A stretch of 64,000 bases of DNA, taken from the NCBI RefSeq assembly GCF_016097555.1, contig NC_054704.1, positions 91,620,502 to 91,684,501 on the forward strand, read 5' to 3'. The translations under genes and the position numbers were made by a program. Below, one piece after another: positions 1,381-60,381 of the stretch; the stretch's first letter is position 1; every line of letters starts with the position of its first letter. Source of the stretch: Gigantopelta aegis. Lineage: Eukaryota; Mollusca; Gastropoda; Neomphalida; Peltospiridae. The notes under the pieces were generated by a model. The model was not told where the DNA came from, did not search any database, and saw only the letters and a list, made by a program, of their open reading frames with translations.

Positions 1381-2476
1381 TTTTCGTGTTTATATAAAAT
1401 TCCATGGCATTGCAGATCTTGTCATCAACTGGTCTAATTACTCGTTGATCGTCCAAATAATTATCACATCCGGTCATTTGTCTTGGAGAAGAGCGCTAGC
1501 TAAAAGTCTTGTATACAAGTTGAACATTTTTGTTTAAATTTCATCCTTTTAGGAAGCTTCAGGGCGAGTACACCTGCGGGCGGAATTACCCTACAAAAAT
1601 AATTTATGGTTAGGACAGTGCCACTAAGGAGAAGAAAGCTTTCGCCAAAGTGTTTAGAAATGTGAGACATCTCTGTAAATATATACAATATACTGGGTAT
1701 TTCCCATCAGTAGGCTACTGTTTGTGGTTGTTTTTAACATTCGAAGGGTGTTCTTGGAAATTCTGGTTTTTTGATATTAACTTTGTCACTGTTGAAACAT
1801 CCATCTCTGTAGACATGTTTTCTTTTTATTATATTATTTTTCGTCGAAATTATTCGTGTAATCAGACAATCAAGGCAACAGTTTTGCAAAACCTTAAACA
1901 TAGAGAATCTGACTGAGTAATAACATATTACATATCTAACATATACTCGTCAACAAAATAGGGGAACCTGAAATATTAATGCTAATATCAACTATTAGAC
2001 AGAATATACGTTTTGACCACAGACATCCTTGTAAAGAACGTTCAGGTCTGTTTATCAACACACCGAAACACATTCCATAGTTTGCACGTGCATCACGCAG
2101 TTGCCCCGTACACGTGCGTGTGGTGTCATTCTCGATTATGACAATTTCTAGGAAGGTCCATTAATCACTGTGAAACATTATTTCTGTCAATCTTTTTCAT
2201 TCTGTTGATCATACATTTGTTATTGTTTTGTTTTTAGTCATTTGTATTGTTTGAAATTGCGATTTACTGATCAAAAACCCGTCAACTTTCAAATTTCACT
2301 TCTGACCCCAATCGTCCTTCAAGATCTTTTGTGGTCATAACACCTACTGTAATACTGAACTACCGGTTGTAATGTTTGCCCAATTAATTCACTATTATCA
2401 TAAAACCATTCCCCACAGCTAATATACCTTACAATTTTGGCAATTGTAAATTCTTATTAGAGTTTCCCTACTTTAT

Positions 2477-2480
<4 letters not shown>
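1381..2480. other. Intergenic, no gene recognised
   Basis: Only short unsupported open frames are present. The sequence is non-repetitive apart from AT-rich stretches. Confidence 0.5.

Positions 2481-2532
<52 letters not shown>
2481..2532. repeat. (TA)n microsatellite
   Basis: An uninterrupted TA dinucleotide run of about 50 bases lies just upstream of the duplicated first-exon module. Confidence 0.95.
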
Positions 2533-2534
<2 letters not shown>

Positions 2535-2564
2535 AAATTAGGCCTAATCTAATTCAACGTGTAT

Positions 2565-2850
2565 AATCTTCCACAATCAAGGGGTCCAACCTAAACCGTA
2601 TGACACGTGCTTGAACTTCGTATACCACTGCCAAAATGGCGGATAAAGCTCGCTTCGACACACGACGGTGAGTACATTTTGTCTTACAACTGAGCTAAAT
2701 GCCTTTCTGATTAAAATAATATTGCAATACGGCTCTAGAATGAATACTCTATCCATCTGTTTACGTAATTTTCGATTTTGTTCAACCGAAAAAAAGCTAT
2801 TGAAAAAAAAAACTTTTTTTTTTGACGGTCAAAACAAACATGATAAAAAT
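2565..2850 (+). repeat. Duplicated 5' gene module, copy A
   Basis: About 285 bases match the reverse complement of about 4660-4950 at roughly 85 percent by eye. The block covers a putative 5' leader (GGGGTCCAACCTAAACCGTA), a short start exon and the first part of an intron. Similarity fades near 2850, before the downstream exons, so the two genes share a beginning but not a body. The copies are inverted and convergent. Confidence 0.8.
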
Positions 2851-3226
2851 GTAATCTTCGCACCTCAGACTTTGCAAATTGTGATTACTCAGTCCATTTG
2901 AGAAAGCATCTTCCATATCAACACCTATAGATGTATATCCTACATCCAACAAGGAATTTCCAACACCACCACAGCAGATAGCATCACAAAAGAAAGGAGA
3001 AAAGCGATTTAGGAAGAGGTTGTCATTCGTAACTCTGAGTGTAAATGACGGTGATGATAATCATACATTTCAAGTGTTAATTAAACCGTCCCTTGACGCA
3101 GACATGTATACTGATGATATAACAGAAACAATGTCACGTTTCAGAAGCAGTGTTGAAAATGGCGTTTTTTTCCACACACACAAAAAACACACAAAAAAAC
3201 AACAACATTTCCTATGTATTATTTAA
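2636..3226 (+). CDS. Putative two-exon gene A, unknown product
   Basis: Exon 1 (2636-2667) starts with ATG in a good context (CAAAATGGCGG) and encodes MADKARFDTRR, ending at a strong donor (CG followed by GTGAGTAC). An acceptor at 2891-2892 (TTACTCAG) opens exon 2 at 2893 in the compatible phase. The frame then runs to a stop at 3224-3226, about 121 residues in all. Exon 2 reads as a plausible soluble charged protein (PFEKASSIST, RFRKRLSFVTLSVNDGDDNH, SLDADMYTDDITETM) until it enters a CACA/A-rich stretch. The last 25 or so residues are therefore probably not native, and the real exon may end earlier. I do not recognise the family. The start exon is shared with the zinc-finger gene at 4253-4884, so a relationship is likely. 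It may be a truncated copy. Confidence 0.4.
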
Positions 3227-6014: not shown

Positions 6015-7597
6015 CTACTCAAAAGAATTTAAGGGTCAGACGATATTTTCGACATTATTTTCTGAATGTCAATTATATTAGCTAGACCATAATGTCACGC
6101 ATGGTATTGTTCCATTTTGACGAAAGTGGGTCTAAGCAACCCATAAATGAATTAAAATCCACTGTCACTGACACTGTCGACTAGTTCTAATGGCGAAAAC
6201 ATGCTTACATTTGCACGTAAATTAGGGCGAAAGCGAAAGGTCTGCTAAGTGCCCATAACTTGCTTTTTCACAAAGCGCTTCATTTGCACGCTTTGCACGT
6301 GTATTCCATGTTCCCAATGCTGAATTTCCGTATAATTGGAGCTTGCGTTCGTGTACGGTGCACACTCCAAATTCGACAATGGTACGACTTCAACTGACTA
6401 TCGAAGATCGAGGAAGGGCTATTGCTTGGCTTCAGGATGGCAAAACGCAAAGAAATGTTGCTCTGAGACTTGGTGTCAGTCACAGTGTCGTTGGCCGACT
6501 GTGGCAACGGTACCAAGCAACGAATTCTGTTCGAAATCGTCCACGTTCGGGAAGACCCCGAAGCACTACAAATAGAGAGGACCGCTACATCACCAATATG
6601 GCTCTACGTCAACGCACAACCACTGCACGCCGATTACGTGACAATCTGCGGACTGCGACTGGAACTCGAGTGTCTGATCAAACCATACGCAATCGTCTGA
6701 GAGCCAATAATCTACGCTGCCGTCGCCAGGCTGTTCGACCACCACTCCTACCACGTCACAGAACGGCCAGACATCACTGGTGCACGCTTCATCTGCGGTG
6801 GCAACGTGTTCAGTGGGGTCGAGTGATGTTCACTGATGAGTCCAGGTTTAGTCTCCAGTTCAACGACGGTCGGGTTCGTGTCTACAGACGTCCTGGGGAG
6901 CGCTTCGCTGAAGTTAACGTTAGACAAAGTCACCGGTTCGGTGGTGGCAGCGTCATGGTGTGGGGCGGCATCTCTATCCACCACAGGACCCTCCTCTATG
7001 TGGTGGATGGCAATCTGAATGGAATCCGCTATCTGAATGAGATTATCCGGCCGTTGGTTCTCCCAGGCCTTCAGCAGATTGGCGGCGGGGCAGTTCTGCA
7101 GGATGACAATGCCAGACCCCACCGCGCCAGGGTGGTAACGGACTTTCTCAGACAACATGGTATCGCCAGGATGGATTGGCCAGCATATTCGCCTGACTTG
7201 GCCCCAATGGAGCACGCCTGGGACGAATTAGGCAGGAGAGTTCGGGATAACCATGCCCCTCCGGCCAACCTTCATGATCTGGGTCAACTTCTTATGGCAG
7301 AGTGGCAGGCCATTCCCCAAGAGTTCTTCAAACGTCTGATCAACAGCATGAGGCAACGATGTGTCGAGTGTATTCGCGCCAGGGGTGGATTCACACACTA
7401 TTAAACGAATGTTCTAATGTGTAAAATCCATGTTTGACAACCTTCAACTTTGACAGCATGTCATGTGACTTTCTTGTATACAGTGACGTTTATTTGTGGT
7501 TTTTTGTAAATGTGGAACAATAGTTTACATCATCAATCTAATACACTCTGAAACTTATTTGGTTATAAATTTTTGACCCTTAAATTCTTTTGAGTAG
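6015..7597 (+). mobile_element. Tc1/mariner-type DNA transposon, apparently whole
   Basis: Both ends carry the same inverted repeat, starting CTACTCAAAAGAATTTAAGG and running about 24 bases with no mismatch. The left end follows a TA dinucleotide at 6013-6014; the right end is followed by TTATA, so its TA is off by one base. The element is about 1.58 kb and holds one transposase gene on the same strand. A second copy in the opposite orientation lies at 55003-56590. Intact ends plus an intact gene suggest recent arrival. Confidence 0.92.
6379..7404 (+). CDS. Tc1-like DDE transposase
   Basis: Cut-and-paste transposase of the Tc1/mariner superfamily, 341 residues counted from the first ATG (MVRLQLTIEDRG); the open frame extends 12 codons further upstream without an ATG. 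An N-terminal paired-type helix-turn-helix occupies about residues 8-110 (RAIAWLQDGKTQRNVALRLG, then a basic GRPRSTTNRED linker). The catalytic triad is visible: D153 in MFTDESRF, D243 in LQDDNARPH and E278 in SPDLAPMEH, with 34 residues between the last two, the DD34E spacing of Tc1. The WGGISIHHR and WDELGRRV motifs are also typical. No stop or frameshift is seen, and the length is normal for the family. The gene lies alone between the terminal inverted repeats. Activity is inferred as possible but not shown. Confidence 0.95.
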   Translation: MVRLQLTIEDRGRAIAWLQDGKTQRNVALRLGVSHSVVGRLWQRYQATNSVRNRPRSGRPRSTTNREDRYITNMALRQRTTTARRLRDNLRTATGTRVSDQTIRNRLRANNLRCRRQAVRPPLLPRHRTARHHWCTLHLRWQRVQWGRVMFTDESRFSLQFNDGRVRVYRRPGERFAEVNVRQSHRFGGGSVMVWGGISIHHRTLLYVVDGNLNGIRYLNEIIRPLVLPGLQQIGGGAVLQDDNARPHRARVVTDFLRQHGIARMDWPAYSPDLAPMEHAWDELGRRVRDNHAPPANLHDLGQLLMAEWQAIPQEFFKRLINSMRQRCVECIRARGGFTHY

Positions 7598-28906: not shown

Positions 28907-29572
28907 CGAGGACTGCCACTTCCCTACAAAATACGTATCAGGATGTCTCATCCCTCCTGGAGGAAGACTGCCACTTCCCTAGGAGATACGTATCAGGATG
29001 TCTCATCCCTCCTGGAGGAAGACTGCCACTTCCCTAGGAGATACGTATCAGGATGTCTCATCCCTCCTGTACCGCTTGAAGGAATATTGCCACTTCCCTA
29101 AGAGATACGTATCAGGATGTTTCATCCCTCCCAGAGGAAGACTGCCACTCCCCTAGGAGATACGTATCAAGATGTCTCACCCCTCCTGTACCGCTTGAAG
29201 GAATATTGCCACTTCCCTAGGAGATACATATCAGGATGTCTCATCCCTCCTGAAGGAAGACTGCCACTCCCCTAGGAGATAAGTATCAGGATGTCTCACC
29301 CCTCCTGTACCGTTTGAAGGAATACTGCCACTTCCCTAGGAGATACGTATCAGGATGTCTCATCCCTCCTGTGCCGCCTGAAGGAAGACTGCCACTCCCT
29401 AGGAGATACGTATCAGGATGTCTCATCCCTCCTATGCCGCTTGAAGGAATACTGCCACTCTCCTAGGAGATACGTATCAGGATGTTTCATCCCTCCTGGA
29501 AGAAGACTGCCACCCCTAGGAGATACCTATCAATATGTTCCATCCCTCCTACATAGACTGATACCACTTTCA
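28907..29572. repeat. Minisatellite, about 11-12 units of 53-66 bp
   Basis: Each unit contains GAAGACTGCCACTTCCCTAG, GAGATACGTATCAGGATGTC and TCATCCCTCC. Some units carry an extra GTACCGCTTGA block. Short and long units alternate through much of the array, giving a higher-order dimer of about 115-120 bases. Single related units occur at 17863-17916 and 18157-18176. Confidence 0.9.
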
Positions 29573-53160: not shown

Positions 53161-53400
53161 TTAGGTTGCACACCACAAGAACAATCTGGACGTTTGTATT
53201 AAGGACGCACTGAATAATTCGTCTATGCCTATGCCATGGCAGTCATTCATTTTAAACGTATCATTAACAAACAAGGAATATAACAAAGGGGATAAATGTT
53301 CACCTTTTCTAACACCAACACAGCAGGGGAAATAATCTGTCAAGGAGTTATGTGCGCTGGCACAACATTTAATATTCTGATACATATTATGAATTACTGG
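53161..53400 (-). pseudogene. LINE reverse-transcriptase fragment
   Basis: The minus-strand frame reads NSLTDYFPCCVGVRKGEHLS then PLLYSLFVND. This is the RT block before the catalytic YADD of non-LTR retrotransposons (family form GV(K/R)QGE-LSP-LF-LF-ND). The YADD motif is not present. The fragment is about 80 codons, preceded by VIHNMYQNIKCCAS, and stops at the edge of the minisatellite. Confidence 0.75.
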
Positions 53401-53412
53401 AAAAGACTTAGT

Positions 53413-54888
53413 GGTACAGAGTTGTACAAGAATACGTGGTCGGTACTTACAGAGTTCTACAAGAACACGTGGTCGGTACTTACACAGTTGTCCAAGAACA
53501 CGTGGTCGGCACTTACACAGCTGTACAATAACACGTGGTCGGTACTTACACAGTTGTCCAAGAACACGTGGTCGGCACTTACACAGGTGTACAATAACAC
53601 GTGGTCGGTACTTACACAGTTGTACAATAACACGTCGTCGGTACTTACGCAGCTGTACAATAAGACGTGGTTGGTACTTACGCAGCTGTCGTCGGCACTT
53701 ACACAGCTGTACAATAACACGTGGTCGGTACTTACGCAGTTGTATAATAACACGTCGTCGGTACTTACGCAGTTGTACAATAACACGTCGTCGGCACTTA
53801 CGCAGCTGTACAATAACACGTGGTCGGCACTTACGCAGCTGTACAATAACACGTGGTCGGTACTTACGCAGCTGTACAATAACACGTGGTCGGCACTTAC
53901 GCAGCTGTACAATAACACGTCGTCGGCACTTACGCAGCTGTACAATAACACATGGTCGGCACTTACGCAGCTGTACAATAACACGTCGTCGGCACTTACG
54001 CAGCTGTAAAATAACACGTCGTCGGTACTTATGCAGCTGTACAATAACACGTCGTCGGCACTTACGCAGCTGTACAATAACACGTGGTCGGTACTTACAC
54101 AGCTGTACAATAACACGTCGTCGGTATTAACACAGCTGTACAATAACACGTGGTCGGTATTTACGCAGCTGTACAATAACACGTGGTCGGTACTTACGCA
54201 GTTGTACAATAACACGTGGTCGGTCCTTACGCAGTTGTACAAGAACACGTGATCGGTACTTACACAGTTGTACAAGAACACGTGATCGGTACTTACACAG
54301 TTGTCCAAGAACACGTCGTCGATACTTACACAGTTGGACAAGAACACGTGGTCGATACTTACACAGTTGGAAAAGAACACGTGGTCGATACTTACACAGT
54401 TGGAAAAGAACACGTGGTCGGTACTTACACAGTTGGACAAGAACACGTGGTCGATACACAGTTGGACAAGAACACGTGGTCGGTACTTATACAGTTTTAC
54501 ACAGTTGGACAAGAACACGTTGTCGATACTTACACAGTTGGACAAGAACACGTGGCCGGTACTTACACAGTTGGACAAGAACACGTGGTCGATACTTACA
54601 CATTTGGACAAGAACACGTGGCCGGTACTTACACAGTTGGACAAGAACACGTGGTCGGTACTTACACAGTTGGACAAGAACACGTGGTCGGTACTTACAC
54701 AGTTGGACAAGAACACGTGGCTGGTACTTACACAGTTGGACAAGAACACGTGGTCGGTACTTACACAGTTGGACAAGAACACGTGGTCGATACTTACACA
54801 CGTGGTCGATACTTACACAGTTGGACAAGAACACGTGGTCGATACTTACATAGTTGGACAAGAACACGTGGTCGATACTTACACAGTT
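53413..54888 (-). repeat. 33-bp minisatellite of splice-donor units, about 45 copies
   Basis: On the minus strand the unit begins GTAAGTACCGACCACGTG and ends TTCTTGTCCAACTGT. Two blocks are visible: 53413-54240, mostly TACAATAACACG (plus strand), and 54241-54888, mostly GGACAAGAACACG. A few units are shortened (near 53690, 54455 and 54790). About 30 units keep CACGTG. Because 33 is a multiple of three and the unit lacks stops in several frames, both strands show long false open frames (VFLSNCVSTDH repeats on the minus strand). The seed copy is at 58594-58623, next to the TRIM exon. Confidence 0.95.
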
Positions 54889-55002
54889 CTCCCGTGAAAA
54901 GCCAGAACCTAGTAACTCACTTTTTGCTTGTTTTGAGAAAACCAAAGAAAACATCATTTGTGAATATTAAAATCTAGTCTATTCATGGAGATGTACTTAC
55001 TG

Positions 55003-56590
55003 TTTACGGGTCAAAAATTTATAACCAAATAAGTTTCAGAGTGTATTAGATTGATGATGTAAACTACACCAATTTTTTTTTTTATTGTTCCATATTTACA
55101 AAAAACCACAAATAAACGTCACTGTATACAAGAAAGTTACATGACATGCTGTCAAAGTTGAAGGTTGTCAAACATGGATTTTACACATTAGAACATTCGT
55201 TTAATAGTGTGTGAATCCACCCCTGGCGCGAATACACTCGACACATCGTTGCCTCATGCTGTTGATCAGACGTCTGAAGAACTCTTGGGGAATGGCCTGC
55301 CACTCTGCCATAAGAAGTTGACCCAGATCATGAAGGTTGGCCGGAGGGGCATGGTTATCCCGAACTCTCCTGCCTAATTCGTCCCAGGCATGCTCTATTG
55401 GGGCCAAGTGAGGCGAATATGCTGGCCAATCCATCCTGGCGATACCTTGTTGTCTGAGAAAGTCCGTTACCACCCTGGCGCGGTGGGGTCTGGCATTGTC
55501 ATCCTGCAGAACTGCCCCGCCGCCAATCTGCTGAAGGCCTGGGAGAACCAACGGCCGGATAATCTCATTCAGATAGCGGATTCCATTCAGATTGCCATCC
55601 ACCACATAGAGGGGGGTCCTGTGGTGGATAGAGATGCCGCCCCACACCATGACGCTGCCACCATCGAACCGGTGACGTTGTCTAACGTTAACGTCAGCGA
55701 AGCGCTCCCCAGGACGTCTGTAGACACGAACCCGACCGTCGTTGAACTGGAGACTAAACCTGGACTCATCAGTGAACATCACTCGATCCCATTGAACACG
55801 TTGCCACCGCAGATGAAGCGTGCACCAGTGACGTCTGGCCGTTCTGTGACGTGGTAGGAGTGGTGGTCAAACAGCCTGGCGATGGCAGCGTAGATTACTG
55901 GTTCTCAGACGATTACGTATGGTTTGATCAGACACTCGAGTTCCAGTCGCAGTCCGCAGATTGTCACGTAATCGGCGTGCAGTGGTTGTGCATTGACGTA
56001 GAGCCATATTGGTGATGTAGCGGTCCTCTCTATTTGTAGTGCTTCGGGGTCTTCCCGAACGTGGACAATTTCGAACAGAATTCGTTGCTTGGTACCGTTG
56101 CCACAGTCGGCCAACGACACTCTGACTGACACCAAGTCTCAGAGCAACATTTCTTTGCGTATTGCCATCCTGAAGCCAAGCAATAGCCCTTCCTCGATCT
56201 TCGATAGTCAGTTGAAGTCGTACCATTGTCGAATTTGGAGTGTGCACCGTACACGAACGCAAGCTCCAATTATACAGAAATTCAGCATTGGGAACATGAA
56301 ATACACGTACAAAGCGTGCAAATGAAGCGTTTTGTGAAAAAGCAAGTTATTGGCACTTAGCAGACCTTTCGCTTTCGCCCTAATTTACGTGCAAATGTAA
56401 GCATGTTTTCGCCATTAGAACTAGTCGACAGTGTCAATGACAGTGGATTTTAATTCATTTATGGGTTGCTTAGACCCACTTTCGTCAAAATGGAACAATA
56501 CCATGCGTGACATTATGGTCTAGCTAATATAATTGACATTCAGAAAATAATGTCGAAAATATCGTCTGACCCTTAAATTCTTTTGAGTAG
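55003..56590 (-). mobile_element. Tc1/mariner-type transposon, second copy, nested
   Basis: Nearly identical to 6015-7597 and inserted in the larger transposon. Its right-hand end is complete (TTTTGAGTAG followed by TA at 56591-56592). Its left-hand end has lost about 13 terminal bases, leaving TTTACGGGTCA, so this copy could not be mobilised by the normal end recognition. Confidence 0.93.
55201..56226 (-). pseudogene. Tc1-like transposase with one nonsense codon
   Basis: The same 341-codon gene as at 6379-7404, with full length and frame kept. The only break seen is at 55867-55869, where codon 120 is TGA in place of the CGA (Arg) of the intact copy. This is a CpG-type C to T change between the DNA-binding and catalytic parts. 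The catalytic D, D and E residues and DD34E spacing remain. Other differences are scattered missense changes (for example APMEH to APIEH). Confidence 0.93.
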
Positions 56591-57089
56591 TATATATCCA
56601 CTAAGGTTCACAATTCTCACCAATAATTAATCGGACTTAATTACCATTATTTTGGCGGGAAAATTAGTTACTAGGTTTTGGCATAGCAAATGCTAAAGAA
56701 CTACATATATATTACCAAGGCAAAACCTAGTTTGAAAATTACTCATTTATTTTCCAATAAATGTGTGTACAAATGGCAGGAAAATACGACATAGCTTCAA
56801 TAAGGCATTGAGACCTGCAAGAAAATGCACTTGTCTCATGAATTGGAATGTTGTTTGAAGTTAACGACCGAAGTACTAGCCCTGTATCTAGTACAATCAA
56901 ATTTAATGACATATAATCATGATTTAATGTTTAACTTTCTCACTAGGCCATTCTTTCTTACAGTACATGTAATAGTAAGTTTTTAAATCTACAATAGCTG
57001 AAAAGTGGTCAAGTGGTTTATAAACCCCACAGACAACAAAGATGCCTCTGCCCGGACTAGTTCAAATGTGAGGTCTATTAATTGCTATT

Positions 57090-58040
57090 TTAGCGTATGG
57101 AATTTGCCAGGTCACTGACGTCTCTCTCGGGTATGTCCAACCAGAAGAGTTTCTTTGTGGCGGGTCAACACGTAACAAATTGAGTATTCCAGTCTTCTTG
57201 GATTTGGGAATGCCACGTGGTTCTGCCCGTTTGGATGGAAATTGACCTGTCACATCAAACTTCGCCTTCAGGAAGTCAATTTCTGTGTATGGGTCATCGA
57301 AGTCCTCCTTGTACATCATTGTACACCTACCCTTGGAGAATTTGACCTCACATACCTTTCCCAACAGCGGCATCTTTGTCTTCTTCCCACTACGGGCGCG
57401 TTGTTCCCCGCTGAATTCATAGAAATCAATGTACTCCAAAAGAATGGGCATTATTATCTTGGAGGATGTTTGGCATAGCTCCACGAAGTCGTCAAAGGTA
57501 AATATATTCTCATCCTGTTTCATTTTTCCCCCAATAGACCCATGAATGGAATCTGTCTTCATGTAAGTGTGCCTCTTTTGTAGGTATTTGATAACCACTT
57601 GCTGAGAGCCCCAAACTGCATTCACACATTGTGCGAGAGCTGTGTATAATGTCCAGTTCTTATTTTGACCCCCACAATTATTAACATAGAATAGGAGGTT
57701 AGGGGATGCATCCTTAATAATGCACTTGATATACGCACTTGCAACATCTTGGGCAAATCTACCAACGTTCCCTCATGCCACAACACCACATAATCTGGTT
57801 CATGATCAGCTCCCATTCGGGCAAAGGTCTCATTAAAAACAATGCGGTGGCTCACAAAGAAGCTCTATTTAGTGGAAAGTTTAGGTATTACCCTCTGCAT
57901 GTCAACGGCATACATATTAAAACCATCGGGAAACTCCTTCTGGTATTCAATTCGAGCTTTTGTGTAAGCTATCTTATGTTATGGCCATCAATACATTCCT
58001 CACATGTATCGGCATCATGATCACCAAAAATTATGTTTTA
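57090..58040 (-). pseudogene. DUF7869-like transposase remnant
   Basis: In minus-strand order: a HDADTCEECIDGH Cys block, RIEYQKEFPDGFNMYAVDMQ, VFNETFARMG, PDYVVLWHEG, GRFAQDVASAYIKCIIKD, FYVNNCGGQNKNWTLYTALA, VVIKYLQKRHTYMKTDSIHG, and a C-terminus ending LDIPERDVSDLANSIR. These blocks match the widespread invertebrate protein family labelled DUF7869. Candidate catalytic acids are D in YAVDMQ, D/N in V(N)NC (N here) and D in TDSIHG, an RNase H-like DDD guess. Breaks include a TAG at 57865-57867, a one-base loss in GGG at about 57775 (after LWHEG), and a frameshift about 15 codons before the C-terminus. The N-terminal part is not resolved. It is the only gene of the 54889-58593 element. Confidence 0.7.
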
Positions 58041-58623
58041 AAACCAATCCCGATCCAGCAAACCATCGAATAAACCTCACTAAGCCTTCATTGGGTGATT
58101 ATTAATTGTTTATATACTAAAACGCTATTAGAATGGTCAAAGATGGGGTCTAGTGTCTAGTGTGCCACTCGGAAGTCGAAGCAACACTGCAATAAACTGA
58201 GTTGATTTGGTCATTTTCTCCTACATGTCATAGTATTTGCTTACTCACCTAACGTTTTTCAGGGCCATGGTCGGTAATTGCTTTCCTCTACTTGTCCAGG
58301 CCATACTTTATTGTGATTAAAAACACTGGTAAATGATTTATTTACTGAAATGTTATCACTTTCATGGGCGCAACCATCTTGTTTTGGGCTTCAAAGCTGG
58401 CATCTGATTGGTTGGTTGAGATACTAGGTATTACTGTGGTATCCTAGAACAATGGTGGAGTTGCTAGGTTTTGCCATGCTAATAACTTCGTAATGAAGGA
58501 AAATATTGCCATACACAATACACTAAAGGGAAGTCATATACTCAAACATGATAAAAACAAAATGAGTTACTAGGTTCTGGCTTTGCACGGGAGAGTTGGA
58601 CAAGAACACGTGGCGGTACTTAC

Positions 58624-58851
58624 AGAGGGGTGTTCTGTACTGTCCTGACTTATCATCAACACTGAAGAGGATTTTTCTCATCACATCCTCGTCTGAAAAA
58701 AATATCAATAAACTGTGTTTATATATCATACGTCAATAAATAAACGGAAATGTTCTCATAAGATATGACATATTAATTACGAATTTATTAATATTAACAT
58801 CATTTCGTTCCATTCTGTCTGTGTTACTTAGTTAATTATTATCCCTTCCAC

Positions 58852-58885
<34 letters not shown>

Positions 58886-60381
58886 TACACACACGCACAG
58901 ATTTTGCTTCTAATGAATATATATTTTGCAAAAATATTTACATTTTTAATGCATATTTGCAAACAACAAAAACACTTACCCTTATCTTTACTGTGAAATA
59001 CAATTCCATCAGTAGTCAACTGATGCCCATTGAGACTGATGAAACACGTGTGAGGTCCCGCGCTTGTCGGTCTGTACTCAACGCTTCCCACTCCAAACGA
59101 AATCAGTTCTGACTTCGTCTTCACCTCACTCATCATTTCGGTGGCTGGTTCAACCGTTGCCTTTAACATCTGTCTGATCCTCGGCTTTGGGGTTTTTTGT
59201 TTGGAAGCAGTGTAACTTGAATCACATGGGAACCATGTCCTCTGTTGGCATCCATCACCTCAATGCATGGTTTTATCTGTGACACGAAAGCTACCACCAT
59301 TGGAGTGTTGTCCACGGTTTTACACACCTGACCAAAGGTATCCAGATCTACGCTCACCTCTTCTACCTTCATGTCCAACAGTTCTGGTATTTCTAACACT
59401 GGTTTCCTTCTCCAGATCCTCACACATTATTATAAACCGGACAGCTCGTGCATACGGCAAAGCTTGCTGGCAGTAAAGATAATGTTCGGTCTTACTGTCA
59501 TTTGACTGAGTTAGCATCGCTAATTAATCATTTCTGACAGTCTGTTGGTTGGCTATATTCGAAATGACATTTCCTTGAAGCTGTTTCCTTTTATCAGAGA
59601 GTACAGAGATGCATTGTTTATATGAACCTTCAATATCCTTCAAAAGACGTTCCTTCACGATGCCTAGTGATTCATTCTAATCGGTCAGCCTGCATTTGTA
59701 AACTTCTGTCTTCTGTTTAAACGTTTCTAAATTACGTAAAGTTGCTCTGACGTGGTCTTTCTTTGCTCGATAAACATCTTTGACGTCTAGTATATCATGG
59801 TCTCTGTGGGAGATAAGAGCGCAAGATGAACACATAGCAATCAAACAAGCCTTGCAGAAGAGATTTAACTTTACATTTTCGTGGTTTTTAATAATGTTTT
59901 TCTATTGAAAAAAGTCTTCTTGGGGCATGTTGATAAAGTCTGAAATAGGAATACATGCAGTTGTATGGTGTTTTGACATTGCAAATTTGTTGTGACATGC
60001 TGTACATAATTTACACATGAATTCTTGACAGTATACACAACGCATTGCTGCCTTTGAACCGTTCGGACACTCATGGCACATAATTTCATCCAGCGTATTT
60101 TTCATGGTAAGATATTCAACTAAACTGCTCAACACCTTGTTTTATGGAGATGTTCCTAGTATGTTATCACTCTGAACAGGCCAAACCCGCCGGCAGTTCG
60201 GACATTTCATTCCAGATGGTGACTTCTCTCAAATCGACTCCAGACAGCGGCAGCAGAAGCTGTGGAAGCGCAGTAAGATACGTGGAGATTTGTTCTGATT
60301 GTCGAAATGATCTAAACAAATCTCACACGTGACGAATTCGTCCTGTATTTCCAGGAGTGGAACAACACTGCATTCAGCCAT
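58624..60381 (-). pseudogene. TRIM-family gene (RING, two B-boxes, coiled coil, filamin), decayed
   Basis: The start ATG at 60381 is followed by a RING (CEICLDHFDN, RFHSFCCRC; the third ligand Cys of the family's PCLHSFC is Arg here, then CPNCRRVW). B-box 1 is CHECPNGSKAAMRCVYCQEF with MCKLCTACH; B-box 2 is CKACLIAMCSSC with HRDHD; a coiled coil follows (HVRATLRNLETFKQKTEVYK). The filamin-like repeat reads SVEYRPTSAGPHTCFISLNG. Exons are 58981ff-60381 (donor GTAAGT at 58979) and 58624-58692 (TTTTTTCAG acceptor), joined in phase (AAGG with AC). In-frame stops at 60229-60231, 60142-60144, 59902-59904, 59677-59679 and 59524-59526, plus about three frameshifts, indicate a pseudogene. Functional relatives are E3 ubiquitin ligases. 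The layout recalls TRIM45; the orthology is uncertain. Further 3' exons were not found. Confidence 0.85.

Follow-up and report, generated by a model that had tools for sequence, protein, structure and literature searches.

A minisatellite at the exon 2/intron 2 junction of a TRIM-type gene copy in Gigantopelta aegis, with single-copy counterparts in its paralogues

Introduction

Ordinary minisatellites are begun by slippage between short flanking repeats. The minisatellite known from the work of Turri is said to lie in an expressed vertebrate gene, 6-16/IFI6, and to have a shorter unit than the one considered here, which is a 33-bp tandem repeat behind exon 2 of a broken TRIM-type gene copy of the gastropod Gigantopelta aegis. 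The stretch analysed, referred to throughout as the window, comprises 64 kb (C6:91620502-91684501), and all genome searches were made in the same 1.149-Gb assembly. Mirages are tandem repeats that extend across exon-intron boundaries; the name was coined for those of lancelet genes, namely Adh3, the globins and TnC, and PGBD5 has been compared with them. In the globin gene BflGb6, one haplotype has 6 units and the other 3, each unit being 150-160 bp long (PMC3087553, PMC3902484). A further report (PMC2812944) describes variable internal tandem repeats with units of ~30 bp in paralogues of human segmental duplications, where they change the structure of genes. The first-pass annotation of the window knew of no named class for an array of tandem splice donors; the lancelet mirages provide one.

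We propose that 33 bp straddling the end of exon 2 and the start of intron 2 in a TRIM-family copy (4 exon and 29 intron bases) were tandemly duplicated, probably because two short repeats, CTCTGTA, underwent slippage or unequal exchange, and that the duplicated segment would then have expanded and been partly homogenised, giving ~45 units. The gene copy would subsequently have decayed, a transposon would have been inserted between the exon-side unit and the other units, and a rearrangement may have joined the distal end of the array to a fragment of a long interspersed nuclear element (LINE), the GTAAGT motifs being carried along as probable passengers. We put the probability of this account as a whole at about 90%.

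The array and the exon-intron junction

The features that bear directly on the origin of the array are as follows.

53411..54888, minus strand: minisatellite of ~45 units of 33 bp, delimited by Tandem Repeats Finder and wrap-around alignment
58594..58627, minus strand: copy of the unit next to the exon, lacking one base relative to those of the array (sequence, BLAST with the unit, alignment with paralogue introns)
58618..58623, minus strand: putative ancestral splice donor GTAAGT, kept in paralogues and allowing an in-frame splice to exon 3
58624..58692, minus strand: exon 2, ending in ...CCCCTCT, with a CAG acceptor before it and a GT donor after it
58981..60381, minus strand: TRIM-type exon 1, interrupted by stops or frame breaks, in which RING-like, B-box-like and filamin-like pieces are recognised; the first ATG is our reading

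Both Tandem Repeats Finder and wrap-around alignment recovered the array of ~45 units that the first-pass annotation had recognised, the alignment having 47 rows including partial units, with 41 ungapped full units. Aligned with the paralogues, the unit consists of CTCT, the last four bases of exon 2, followed by 29 intron bases, the final ones being TACAA. As it takes in these four exon bases, the unit straddles the exon 2/intron 2 junction, and most array copies therefore hold a splice-donor motif: exact GTAAGT occurs 39 times in the array, whereas the remaining 62.5 kb of the window has it 11 times on the minus strand (counting the native donor of intron 2 and the donor of intron 1) and 10 times on the other strand. 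The earlier proposal that the unit was seeded at the start of the TRIM intron is upheld by the paralogue junctions described below, but the unit begins four bases earlier, in the exon. The exon-side copy (58627-58594), the first four bases of which are exon, had been taken as identical to the unit; one base is missing there, and hence it is not exactly the unit.

The heptamer CTCTGTA is found in the region at three places only, namely at the exon junction (58627), in the last full unit (53454) and in the stub that follows it (53421), the two distal occurrences being spaced by 33 bp, a pattern that slippage between short repeats would be expected to produce. The other units mostly have CTGT or CTGC at this place. 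Unit subtypes are clustered along the array, with CTCTGTA retained only at the distal end and at the exon junction of the one haplotype represented. A scan of the window with Rfam gave no family at gathering score.

Single-copy counterparts in paralogous loci

Searching the genome with the TRIM region yielded 41 listed matches on C1, C7, C12 and small contigs, and 40 of the 59 candidates were scored. Nine paralogues, seven on C12 and two on C1, have the homologous intron start just once after the same donor. In the C12 copies (L069-L075), GTAAGTAACGTCCACGTGTACCTGTACAAACATGG comes next after exon 2, slightly varied in L072-L075; exon 2 and the intron start show 83-86% identity, the junction CTCT followed by GTAAGTAACGTCCACGTGTACCTGTACAA (with small variants) occurs once per copy, after exon 2, and GTAAGT appears only once in the initial 400 nt of the intron in all seven. 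In the C1 paralogues, GTAAGTAATGACCACGTGTTTCTGTA is present once in L045 (242 nt read beyond it) and GTAAGTAAGACCACGGGTTTCTGTA once in L082 (at least 300 nt read), while a further locus, L076, has GTAAGTAAC in common and is divergent afterwards. Seven C7 loci (L060-L064, L067 and L068) have GTAAGT at the same place and a different intron start; the motif of L067 lies on the strand opposite to the match of the locus itself and is probably part of a neighbouring copy, and what was read as exon 2 in L066 is probably the L067 copy. Most other exon 1 loci showed no exon 2 in their 1.5-kb flanks, and L065 gave none either. In all 17 paralogous loci in which exon 2 was found, GTAAGT occupies the same position.

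Placed in register, the C12 intron start and the array units agree at up to 24 of 29 bases. Beyond GTAAGTA, the array units reach 17 of 22 bases; elsewhere in the window, searched on both strands, no match is better than 15 of 22, a score that occurs at 2 places.

The C12 copies also indicate how the donor would be used. An acceptor, [C/A]ACAG followed by TGCCAA, is located 919-2737 bp downstream in all seven, and splicing from the donor joins in frame to an open exon 3 of exactly 217 aa in each of them; if the donor is not used, the frame stops two codons on (LCK*, TAA). Because nine paralogues carry the intron start as a single copy and exon 3 follows in frame in 7/7 C12 copies, the boundary at 58623 is best read as a real splice site and the ancestral donor, and the array as a later local amplification. 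The presence of the seed once at the same donor in nine paralogues also speaks against the possibility, raised in the first-pass annotation, that the copy at 58594-58623 was inserted later.

The same C12 copies bear on the idea that the unit is coding, with exon 2 reading on into a protein of 11-residue repeats. This would suit a period divisible by three and the long open reading frames (ORFs) that cross parts of the array in five of six frames (the longest of 451 aa), but the paralogue stop, the in-frame exon 3 and the frame-breaking indels in some array units rule it out, and we consider it extremely unlikely. Equally, the many tandem arrays of this genome would be in keeping with a widespread satellite family that lies beside the exon by chance. 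However, the exact 20-nt core of the unit has 11 occurrences in the assembly, 11/11 of them inside the window array, an outcome in line with the first-pass reading of a local array, and matches derived from the array were confined to the window locus among 40 of 167 candidates scored, with inexact copies elsewhere possible below the reach of the search. Together with a seed common to the paralogues, the exact-core search and the 40 scored candidates contradict the satellite, to which we give practically no credence.

The window copy of the gene is broken. Its exon 1, separated from exon 2 by an intron 1 of 287 bp, matches zf-RING_UBOX (E 0.0043), zf-B_box (E 0.0064) and Filamin (E 0.032), all below Pfam gathering scores, and its ORF is split; the stop-to-stop ORFs over exon 1 are 478-481 aa long in 5 paralogue loci (L040, L041, L043, L044 and L045) and 375-408 aa long in four further loci. 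A search of the window for exon 3 did not find it (best tblastn E 3). For exon 3 of the paralogues, Pfam gave no match at E 0.1, and an identity as SPRY, suggested by its look, was rejected.

The transposon and the LINE fragment

The array is bordered by mobile elements on both sides.

54889..58593, minus strand: DNA transposon between the exon-side unit and the array, recognised by its inverted ends and AACT on both sides
57062-57772: DUF7869-like ORF inside the transposon (Pfam DUF7869, E 1.2e-4, below cut-off)
55201-56346: nested Tc1/mariner-like transposase in the transposon (Pfam DDE_3, E 2.4e-15)
53171..53410, minus strand: fragment from the interior of a LINE-type reverse transcriptase, truncated at either end and abutting the array (RVT_1, E 0.0048, below cut-off)

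That an inserted transposon separates the exon-side unit from the array, as first annotated, is confirmed by inverted ends that agree in 34 of their 36 bases, by AACT on both sides (shorter if the terminal T/A pair is counted in the inverted ends) and by flanking sequence in register. The nested Tc1/mariner-like element (55003-56346) has 248 tail bases that recur at 7355-7584 of the window with 92% identity.

At the other end, the LINE fragment starts where the array ends, which is what would be expected if the unit derived from the LINE and spread up to the TRIM exon. However, sequence upstream of the junction is unrelated to the array unit in 29/29 genome copies of the LINE read (of the type ...AAAATGGTATAAATGG followed by TAAATG), and the unit is present once in the TRIM paralogues; the LINE copies read contradict seeding in the LINE, which we regard as next to impossible. 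At the other end of the window fragment the LINE continues in 6/6 copies looked at. The LINE copies thus extend beyond both ends of the window fragment, which is therefore internal.

Conservation and predicted U1 pairing of the array donors

One alternative is that the array acts as a series of decoy 5' splice sites, or as a platform for U1, and in this way influences how the TRIM transcript is spliced or keeps it from being polyadenylated early. The 39 exact GTAAGT motifs lie in sense orientation behind the ancestral donor, and a human minisatellite is, by the title of Turri 1995, one that provides multiple splice donors in an interferon-induced transcript. The six donor columns of the array have a mean conservation of 0.98, ranking third of the 33 six-column windows, and show fewer changes from one unit to the next than the remaining columns do (mean 1.3 vs 3.1). 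However, two windows inside ACGTGTT rank above the donor hexamer. The pattern of conservation does not single out the donor, and the analysis did not show selection specific to GTAAGT.

Each unit had further been described as a near-perfect U1 site, which is overstated: the six intronic bases do pair with U1, but position -1 is T or C. The predicted duplex energies of the units (-6.5 to -7.3 kcal/mol) resemble that of the weak native donor (-6.8) and fall short of those of the intron 1 donor (-11.9) and the consensus (-14.0).

Tandem GTAAGT motifs are, moreover, not peculiar to this locus. Spaced GTAAGT triplets gave 25,181 matches genome-wide (13,007 + 12,174), with overlapping matches within one array counted separately, and tandem GTAAGT arrays are therefore common in this genome; the reversed-hexamer control gave 63,046 matches, which are probably inflated by TGAA-type microsatellites and make it an imperfect control. 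One of the many GTAAGT-bearing arrays is a long array of a 29-bp GTAAGTGGTGTGTT-type unit at C1:136505-139652.

A regulatory role would matter only if the locus is transcribed. The broken gene copy, the failure to find exon 3 in the window, the equal conservation of other array bases and the abundance of GTAAGT arrays all argue against decoy donors or U1 protection. So do the 3.7-kb transposon that now separates the donor from the array, a 40-bp array behind the same donor in L083, the unit of which is without GTAAGT, and the lancelet mirages, reported as leaving splicing undisturbed (PMC3087553, PMC3902484). We found nothing that suggests a job for the array and regard this alternative as very improbable.

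Points against the proposed origin

Four points weigh against the amplification of a junction segment followed by passive retention of its GTAAGT motifs. First, beyond GTAAGTA the C1 introns match at 15 of 19 bases, and the best chance match in the window is 14 of 19; since the difference is one base, the case for the origin of the unit rests on position and on the C12 copies. Second, 4 close relatives on C1 and C709 (L040+L077, L042+L079, L043+L080 and L044+L081) yielded no exon 2 in the parts of them that were read. Third, the slippage step would draw on a 7-base repeat that lies at the end of the array itself, where a partial last unit would give the same pattern. Fourth, the rank of the donor hexamer and its lower variation between neighbouring units (third of 33; 1.3 vs 3.1) leave room for mild constraint.

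Recurrent minisatellites in the TRIM intron

Other paralogues carry arrays of their own in the same intron. In L083, which extends L062 on C7, an array of seven copies of a 40-bp unit, unrelated to the 33-bp unit, begins 20 nt behind the same TRIM donor; the 40-bp array is also present in L060 and L063, and the sequence is single-copy in L061, L064, L067 and L068. Further inside the same intron, the C12 copies L070 and L071 have arrays of 63 bp x 26 (locus positions 1492-3133) and 30 bp x ~32 (1420-2388, reverse strand), respectively. Because unrelated arrays (33 bp; 40 bp in three C7 loci; 63 and 30 bp further in) occur in different paralogues and their sisters are single-copy, the start of the TRIM-family intron may be a recurrent birthplace of minisatellites, with a local feature near the donor promoting tandem duplication, a suggestion that we consider possible and rather unlikely. 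Arrays of period at least 10 make up 8.4% of the TRIM loci sampled (160 kb), 1.8% of the surroundings of LINE copies (94 kb) and 4.4% of the window, these samples being small, partly overlapping and unmatched.

Two further repeats were seen in passing: a 39-bp repeat upstream of TRIM exon 1 (L043:1-112), which has GTAAGT in 2 of 3 units and reaches the edge of the locus, and a complex tandem array at 28911-29550 of the window, with periods of 55, 64 and 119 and a unit containing GATACGTATC.

The birth of a minisatellite is seldom seen alongside a surviving single-copy ancestral state in one genome. Behind a single donor, this TRIM gene family shows an array together with the single-copy state for no fewer than two units, of 33 bp and 40 bp, and could therefore be used for studying the beginnings of arrays and the fate of multiplied splice sites.

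Comparison with known systems

Like ordinary minisatellites begun by slippage, the window array has a period equal to the spacing of a short repeat, CTCTGTA; it differs in that its unit happens to straddle a splice donor. The human paralogue repeats (PMC2812944) are likewise ~30-bp minisatellites in recent paralogues, some of them at exon-intron boundaries, but have 4 repeats on average, and half are coding. The minisatellite of Turri 1995, to judge by the title, is similar in that its units offer splice donors. The closest counterparts are the lancelet mirages, which include the exon-intron boundary of the host gene and have splice signals in many units, with minisatellite-like turnover (PMC3087553, PMC3902484). 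The unit of the window array, with its 4 exon and 29 intron bases, spans such a boundary. In contrast to BflGb6, with 6 and 3 units, it is repeated ~45 times, includes only 4 exon bases per unit and lies in a broken gene copy. The array thus clearly exemplifies a kind of repeat that is already known, being a new, long member of the mirages.

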